Made by a program: the position numbers and the translations under genes. Of a stretch of 52,038 nucleotides of DNA, positions 2,604-2,729 are shown in pieces. The notes under the pieces were generated by a model that made no database searches, had not been told where the DNA came from, and saw nothing but the letters and a program-made list of their open reading frames with translations. Every line of letters begins with the position of its first letter. The stretch's first letter is position 1. Source of the DNA: Bacteroidales bacterium (GTDB taxonomy: Bacteria > Bacteroidota > Bacteroidia > Bacteroidales > P3); assembly GCA_017429685.1 (NCBI GenBank), contig JAFROL010000045.1:1-52038 (forward strand), given 5' to 3'.

Positions 2604-2729
2604 CGGAAAACGGAAAGCGGAAAGCGGAAAACGGAGAACGGAGAACGGAGAACGGAAAACGGAGAACGGAAAGCGGAAAACGGAGAACGGAAAGCGGAAA
2701 ACGGAGAACGGAGAACGGAGAACGGAGAA
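2604..2729 (+). repeat. Purine-rich heptanucleotide array, 18 units
   Basis: Eighteen in-phase 7-bp units of CGGAAAA, CGGAAAG or CGGAGAA directly after the carbonic anhydrase stop. The array has no stop codon in any plus frame, so it generates spurious open frames. The same unit occurs at 4310-4345, 11896-11923, 33819-33853, 33933-33981, 38676-38717, 44058-44113 and 51197-51259. Confidence 0.95.

Follow-up and report, generated by a model that had tools for sequence, protein, structure and literature searches.

Why does one purine-rich heptamer, CGGARAR, recur in tandem arrays between and within the genes of a Bacteroidales bacterium, and why does it so often read in the sense direction? The question is raised by the 52,038-nucleotide (nt) stretch analyzed here (contig JAFROL010000045.1, hereafter the window), a complete contig and one of 52 that make up a 2.65 Mb genome labeled G000 here. 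On balance, and with some reserve, we take the CGGARAR arrays to be an arm family (A) within a set of modular short-tandem-repeat elements dispersed over the genome and subject to slippage, arm exchange, and purifying selection. Other arms are built of octamers of the TTAACGCA type (B) or of TCACNNN heptamers (C), and a reversed arm is marked _rc. Arms on the stop side and on the start side each have a fixed direction, and many of them are joined at a palindromic core in the window species and its sisters. Unit numbers and arms vary between species, and modules are also found in frame in protein loops and linkers.

Exact CGGARAR pairs match 31 times in the window, against a mean of 0.01 in 100 shuffles, none of which reaches 31. 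A sequence-only reading of the window had listed eight array places, each with the purine-rich strand as the sense strand. All eight are indeed sense to the flanking or enclosing gene; six of them are clear, while those at 4310 and 11896 are visible only with mismatches allowed and are each weak taken alone (the latter comprises four degenerate matches in register at 11889-11923), and a further degenerate place at 29904-29931 on the minus strand had been missed. The degenerate search, allowing at most 2 mismatches per 14 bases, finds 68 matches where 5.2 are expected by chance. Degenerate units ahead of the array at 2604 extend back across the stop of the carbonic anhydrase gene. Genome-wide, G000 holds 443 exact overlapping CGGARAR triplets (244 forward and 199 reverse), and the reversed heptamer pattern, which serves as chance control, gives 0 on either strand.

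Direction and position were counted in 787 kb of G000, about 30% of the genome, an array being defined by at least three units, at most one mismatch per unit, and at least two exact units. Genes were called with our own codon-usage script, which missed some window genes, e.g., 33045-33554; listed arrays guided the choice of stretches in the first G000 batch and in the relatives G053 and G035, with no regard to direction. This sample holds 54 A arrays, 30 of them intergenic (including the one at 44058, although it is in frame if the next open reading frame (ORF) begins at 44037) and 24 in reading frames, which is below the share expected by length with 82% of the sample coding, yet not rare. 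In-frame arrays are sense in 20 cases and antisense in 4. The sense:antisense counts within coding sequences (CDS) of four relatives are 14:2 (G053), 23:2 (G035), 8:3 (G063), and 1:0 (G045), i.e., 46/53 sense, bringing the five genomes to 66/77 (p 5e-11). Relative to the upstream gene, 25 intergenic arrays of G000 are sense, 4 antisense, and 1 undecided, a direction that is also clear in G053 (5:0) but not in G035 (5:3). As many as 21 of these 30 arrays start at most 20 nt past a sense stop, against a null of 3.8% (p 2e-23), and for 14 the distance does not exceed 3 nt; a start within 20 nt is also seen for 5/5 intergenic arrays in G053, 3/8 in G035, and 2/6 in G063. TAA stops are scarce upstream of sense intergenic arrays (4/25 versus 265/580 in the sample, p 0.003), and in convergent spacers each gene has its own A array after the stop. 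The sense bias of A arrays is strong but not absolute, and the observation first made in the window is confirmed and stronger than initially stated.

This placement would also be expected if A tracts after stops, and B tracts before starts, were RNA-level elements, held in the sense direction because they are a target of a protein or of the ribosome in the mRNA. In support of such a role, published heptamers with the same placement are described as transcribed (PMC4692102), and repetitive extragenic palindromic (REP) sequences are thought to act in RNA (PMC3733652). About half of the A arrays lie within reading frames, however, which counts against an RNA-level role.

The other arm families place these counts in a wider pattern. 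In co-directional spacers the sense:antisense counts are 26:2 for A, 50:7 for B, and 18:20 for C; A, B_rc, and C_rc occupy the stop side, and B and C lie towards the start, so that, seen from the middle of the spacer, the direction of each family is fixed. C shows no overall preference for either strand, but its direction depends on position (antisense by stops, sense towards starts), which means that part of the sense bias of A reflects which arm of a two-armed unit sits where. The proposal that the element is selected for sense purines is therefore too simple. A_rc is scarce ahead of starts, and C_rc includes stop codons and in several genes provides or adjoins the stop. Array sequence makes up a median of 59% of 16 measured co-directional spacers with A; the median spacer length is 206 nt with A (n=18) versus 86 nt without (n=420).

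The full core reads GGCTGACGCGTCAGCC, or a variant with TTCGTG. Its part GGCTGACGCG, with up to 2 mismatches, is found within 30 nt after 22/54 A arrays of G000 (null 1.4%) but before only 2/54, and after 4/17 in G063. Among the 21 cores of G000 with classified arms, seven join A to B, three A to C, three B_rc to C, and two A to A_rc, with six other combinations; one of the A to A_rc cores lies in a convergent spacer and the other at a contig end, and the A to B element L045:16694 lies inside a gene. A stricter definition of the element, by core plus B, was discarded, as it retrieved only 5/120 genus genomes. The A-core-A_rc sequence of the convergent spacer has a predicted fold of -57.1 kcal/mol (z -7); predicted folds are not clearly beyond shuffles for A-core-B (z 0.8), A alone (z -1.2), or the unit at 44040-44175 (z 1.3). 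That A alone and A-core-B fold no better than chance, and that C is used in both directions, both speak against an RNA-level function.

Comparison of the same sites between species separates changes in unit number from changes in arm. Ten G000 arrays could be anchored by both flanks in G063 (L022:19386, a 46-base repeat-to-repeat match without orthology, was excluded): eight have A there, L016:15039 has a degraded A-like stretch, and L016:10070 has a C module. At L016:9568, 28 nt (4 units) in G000 correspond to 42 nt (6 units) in G063, a difference of whole units. At L016:10070 the left half, B_rc-GTGGCTGACGCG, is identical in the two species, while the right half is A in G000 and TTCGTG-C in G063; this arm change takes place at the core, between flanking alignments of 491 and 683 bases. 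The surrounding stretch of G000 (L016:10070-10230) also repeats A-core pieces head to tail every 44 bases, and this higher-order repeat is absent in G063. Two of three loci anchored in G042 have A, and the third, behind the M48 peptidase gene, is an unrelated spacer that diverges within the stop codon, the M48 protein itself being 97% identical between G000 and G042. That the family at one place differs between close species is again difficult to reconcile with conserved RNA-level elements, which we regard as unlikely.

Whole-unit differences such as the one at L016:9568 are what ordinary long simple sequence repeats (LSSRs) would produce, by in-place slippage from a chance purine-rich seed, with codon and stop selection giving the bias. 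Solitary arrays in G053 and G035 and a sense excess in unrelated viral contigs (see below) point the same way, and 7 is a frequent period of simple repeats in bacteria (Mrazek et al., 2007, as described in PMC4679880). Chance seeds would hardly yield one unit in hundreds of copies in few species, common core and arm combinations, an arm change at the core, or different families at a rhamnosidase site that is empty in most relatives, and we consider this explanation improbable. Of the earlier interpretation, genome-wide spread, strand bias, occurrence within frames, and presence in separately assembled relatives are supported, but slippage alone falls short for the core, the arm change, and the different families at one protein linker.

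That linker belongs to the rhamnosidase, one of nine array genes scanned with Pfam. The array lies between matched domains in the SpoU methylase, Mfd, the rhamnosidase, and a PIF1-like helicase, outside the matched domain in the L024 and L034 genes, and inside the matched span in MiaB and a TMEM260-like protein; the remaining gene had no match. The rhamnosidase site is empty in 7 of the 11 aligned relatives (of 14; G042, a fragment, G058, a distant match, and G033, without match, were left out). It is filled by A-core-B in G000 and G063, by an AATT-type array in G025, and by octamer arrays around the core in G035 and G104. Its B arm has TCA wherever the usual TAA would fall in frame, which suggests that the arm is translated. 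MiaB of G000 has an in-frame insert of about 33 additional residues, with shorter array-like versions in G042, G063, G077, and G045 and little or nothing in the other 10 of 14 relatives. In the DUF819 membrane protein, an array clearly encodes the variable loop in three of 23 aligned sequences (the first 23 of 30 loci, own included), those of G000, G042, and G063; since the loop is of similar length elsewhere, the array has replaced it instead of lengthening it. The unit of the signal-peptide ORF 44037-45548, whose array at 44058 is common to G000, G042, and G063, follows the start codon and precedes the signal-peptide core in these three and is not found in the other 12 of 14. Array length differences in the compared genes preserve the frame. 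Between species no phase variation was observed: none of the seven genes with arrays or modules in the predicted frame, compared with G063 or G042, has a broken frame.

Survival inside reading frames had been tentatively ascribed to frame-neutrality, the unit encoding the same peptide in any frame. This is true as far as it goes: the 256 mixtures of CGGARAR units contain 0 stops in all frames, and the sense peptide reads K/R-A/T-E-S/N-G-K/E. It holds for the antisense strand as well (F-P-L-S-A-F-R), so that frame-neutrality covers the tolerance of arrays within genes but cannot explain their orientation and was rejected as the cause of the sense bias; nor does it spare the downstream frame, because seven is not a multiple of three. 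The encoded peptide and the position of the arm account for orientation better. The mean Kyte-Doolittle value is -2.71 (very hydrophilic) for the sense peptide and +0.66 (mildly hydrophobic) for the antisense one, and peptide hydropathy may be the filter behind the sense bias.

How widely are the arrays distributed? Within the genus, the CGGARAR triplet is present in 18 of 59 drawn genomes (own included), with 275 copies in G045, 222 in G042, and none in the majority. Because these separate assemblies share them, the arrays are not an artefact of one assembly. A draw from the order gave the triplet in 5/393 genomes, namely the own genome and G104 (of this genus), G336 (31), G341 (3), and G149 (1). 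In the order, heptamer arrays of any kind are not a rarity, and the CGGARAR unit is abundant in few species of the genus. In the same draw, G466 has 31 matches to the reversed heptamer, i.e., a different purine heptamer array family in another of the Bacteroidales. Carriage by phages was considered and set aside: 29 viral-contig stretches contain four exact units (G+C 0.57-0.69 in 28 of them and 0.49 in one), but the stop-proximal pattern is not seen there, as only 2 of the 28 intergenic arrays for which an upstream gene was called lie at most 20 nt past a sense stop. The arrays of these unrelated contigs are mainly sense (CDS 13:0, spacers 21:7, with genes called by a model trained on another genome), which says something in favor of a general sense preference.

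A palindromic core, the stable predicted fold of A-core-A_rc, and stop-proximal and intragenic placement like that of REPs (PMC3733652) would all suit true REP elements moved by a REP-associated tyrosine transposase (RAYT) with a Y1 domain. The arms are tandem arrays, however, rather than a 20-40 bp stem-loop, and transposase content does not follow the arrays: G000 has two Y1_Tnp matches (one strong and one just above cut-off), G063 one at cut-off, and G042, 89% complete, none, whereas G001, which lacks the A triplet, has seven. Across the genus, 73/120 genomes have a Y1_Tnp match, unrelated to array load, the draft genomes being incomplete. The Y1 transposase was therefore dropped as a candidate mobilizer, and this origin seems highly improbable.

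Several observations also weigh against the modular reading itself. No mobilizing enzyme was found for it either, Y1 transposase numbers being unrelated to array load. Very few A arrays have the core beside them in G053 (1/21) and G035 (2/32), so that A exists without it; since the core accompanies A mainly in G000 and G063, the composite is a feature of the G000-G042-G063 group and not of A itself. In the order draw, the reversed control occurs in 11/393 genomes versus 5/393 for the real pattern, and other heptamer arrays also arise. Tandem Repeats Finder (TRF), run at a permissive score, lists 355 arrays of period 6-14 in the 787 kb sample, the commoner families other than CGGARAR being wholly or mostly intergenic; small samples of other genus members, including array-poor ones, yield 10-44 arrays per 100 kb versus 45, and array number by TRF alone says little because array-poor relatives reach similar densities. 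Most arrays compared between G000 and G063 lie at shared places, which does not show their spread to be recent.

With these points counted, the modular reading is still the one we prefer, and the mechanism first suggested for the arrays is partly supported. Unit number would change through replication slippage, and arms or whole elements may be copied or exchanged by recombination or template switching, aided by the core where present. Purifying selection would leave elements between stop and start codons, and within proteins they would be kept only where the frame is open and the peptide soluble. The sense bias could then come from that filter together with A serving almost only as a stop-side arm, and the arrays may possibly have a role in RNA. 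The modular arms are the surprising part of these arrays; their mode of spread is unproven.

Several known repeats share some of these properties. GGGNATC heptamers of Xanthomonas and Nostoc are described as genome-wide and variable in unit number, with the G-rich strand as coding strand, at most 50 bp past stops and between aligned genes (Rehm et al., 2015, PMC4692102). A arrays are likewise dispersed, variable in unit number, sense, and close after stops. They differ in having GG only, where the GGG runs can form G-quadruplexes; in lying in coding frames in nearly half of cases (24/54, fewer than the coding length would give but not rare), under-representation in coding regions being a mark of the GGGNATC repeats; and in being accompanied by other arm families and a palindromic core. 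Short tandemly repeated repetitive (STRR) heptamers of heterocystous cyanobacteria are short tandem heptamers dispersed between genes, as A arrays are. REPs are reported to lie for the most part behind genes, in many cases within less than 20 bp of the 3' end and sometimes providing the stop codon, with intragenic copies of which many lie in replication and repair genes; the same source mentions Rickettsia palindromic elements (Di Nocera et al., 2013, PMC3733652). Like REPs, A arrays lie close to gene 3' ends and have intragenic copies, but REPs are palindromes of 20-40 bp tagged with GTAG or CGTC, whereas A arrays are non-palindromic tandem arms, of which only some have a core (the 16-base core, which has no arms of its own, is missing beside 32/54 A arrays of G000). 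Rickettsia palindromic elements are repeats inserted in frame in housekeeping proteins and found also in spacers. The inserts of MiaB and the rhamnosidase relative to their orthologues resemble them in being in frame, but are made up of heptamer or octamer arms in tandem, and the family of these arms varies by species at one site. Tandem TAACTGA heptamers, known from Beggiatoaceae, Cyanobacteria, and a few Bacteroidetes, lie shortly before starts in a fixed direction (MacGregor, 2015, PMC4679880), as family B does; they are a single unit, stop-rich in the forward reading, and the available part of that paper describes no stop-side partner family or core. Palindromic amphipathic repeat coding elements (PARCELs), thought to have moved within and between genomes, are 25-residue tandem protein domains with far longer units (Roske et al., 2010, PMC2996958). 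Prokaryote satellites are treated in "Satellites in the prokaryote world" (PMC6749651). Both marks of a period-7 LSSR, tandem 7 nt units far above chance and unit number varying between genomes, are seen in A arrays. No description of such arrays in Bacteroidales was found in the open-access literature searched. We tentatively propose, as a possibility that is less probable than the modular reading as such, that two-armed modular elements, with tandem 7-11-mer arms of interchangeable families exchanged at a shared core, rebuild stop-to-start spacers as well as in-frame protein loops and linkers and form a new class of dispersed bacterial repeat.

The arrays, arms, and cores of the window are collected in Table 1.

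Table 1. Repeat arrays, arms, and core sequences located in the window.
Position	Strand	Feature	Genomic context
2604..2729	+	A array, 18 exact CGGARAR units	starts ~9 nt past TGA stop (2593-2595) of carbonic anhydrase gene 2053-2595
2768..2900	+	TTAACTTCCC-family array, 10-12 nt units, start-side	precedes pyridoxamine-oxidase-like gene 2919-3407
4238..4289	-	TTAACTTCCC-family array	ahead of start of gene 3651-4220 (-)
4303..4330	-	degenerate A array, 1-2 mismatches	between genes 4366-6654 (-) and 3651-4220 (-), sense to both
11889..11923	+	degenerate A units	within gene 9243-13760; peptide RTESSERKAE
29847..29884	-	B arm, octamers	precedes start of gene 28996-29841 (-)
29885..29900	-	palindromic core GGCTGACGCGGTAGCC (minus-strand reading)	joins A and B arms
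29904..29931	-	degenerate A arm, not listed earlier	
33819..33853	+	A array in frame	gene 33551-34393; peptide AESGEQKAESGR
33933..33967	+	second in-frame A array	gene 33551-34393
38676..38710	+	A array	7 nt past stop of Peptidase_M48 gene 35954-38668
38974..39028	+	B arm, TTAACGAA-type octamers	ahead of gene 39033-39863
44058..44113	+	A array, 8 exact units	17 nt past stop of gene 42841-44040; in frame if next ORF uses ATG 44037
44120..44131	+	core variant GACGCGTTCGTG	
44132..44170	+	C arm, TCACTGG/TCACTTT heptamers	
51197..51224	-	A array in frame	DUF819 membrane protein gene 50629-51813 (-), variable hydrophilic loop

Other repeats lie beside these. The spacer of the convergent genes 2919-3407 and 3651-4220 contains an inverted pair of the 11-base unit TTCTTATATCG, likely a hairpin, at 3517-3570; the unit found there (AACGATATAAG) is common and intergenic, with 34 arrays in the 787 kb sample. 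The M48 gene is followed, at 38719-38835, by diverged A-like units and a AGCCTCGGAGAACCG segment in a higher-order tandem repeat of 33/67 bases. The 12-mers TCCTGCTCGCAA and CGAGCAGGAGAA (motif GCGAGCAGGAG / CTCGCAAGCGAG) form the second frequent non-array intergenic motif of the sample, with 11-16 copies, and are perhaps another core. The most enriched intergenic 10-mers, TATCTTTGCA and TATTTTTGCA, with 40 copies each, resemble the Bacteroidetes -7 promoter box TAnnTTTG. The leader of the TTAACTTCCC family was considered as a candidate and abandoned, two patterns giving 3 matches, and no Rfam family reached its gathering threshold in the window. Among the 80 matches retained of 546 to the carbonic anhydrase in named GTDB genomes, the top ones are uncultured Bacteroidales, mainly with ruminant-gut isolate names (best 96% identity, RGIG6229), and none of 80 named loci around relatives of the gene contains a CGGARAR pair.

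These elements link two kinds of bacterial repeat that are usually kept apart, simple tandem arrays and palindromic interspersed elements. Their natural in-frame inserts in conserved enzymes are available for study, and the 120 species of the genus covered here, with an array load between none and hundreds, make their origin, exchange, and cost testable. They are also a warning for annotation: in such genomes, repeats make up many of the spacers and some protein loops.
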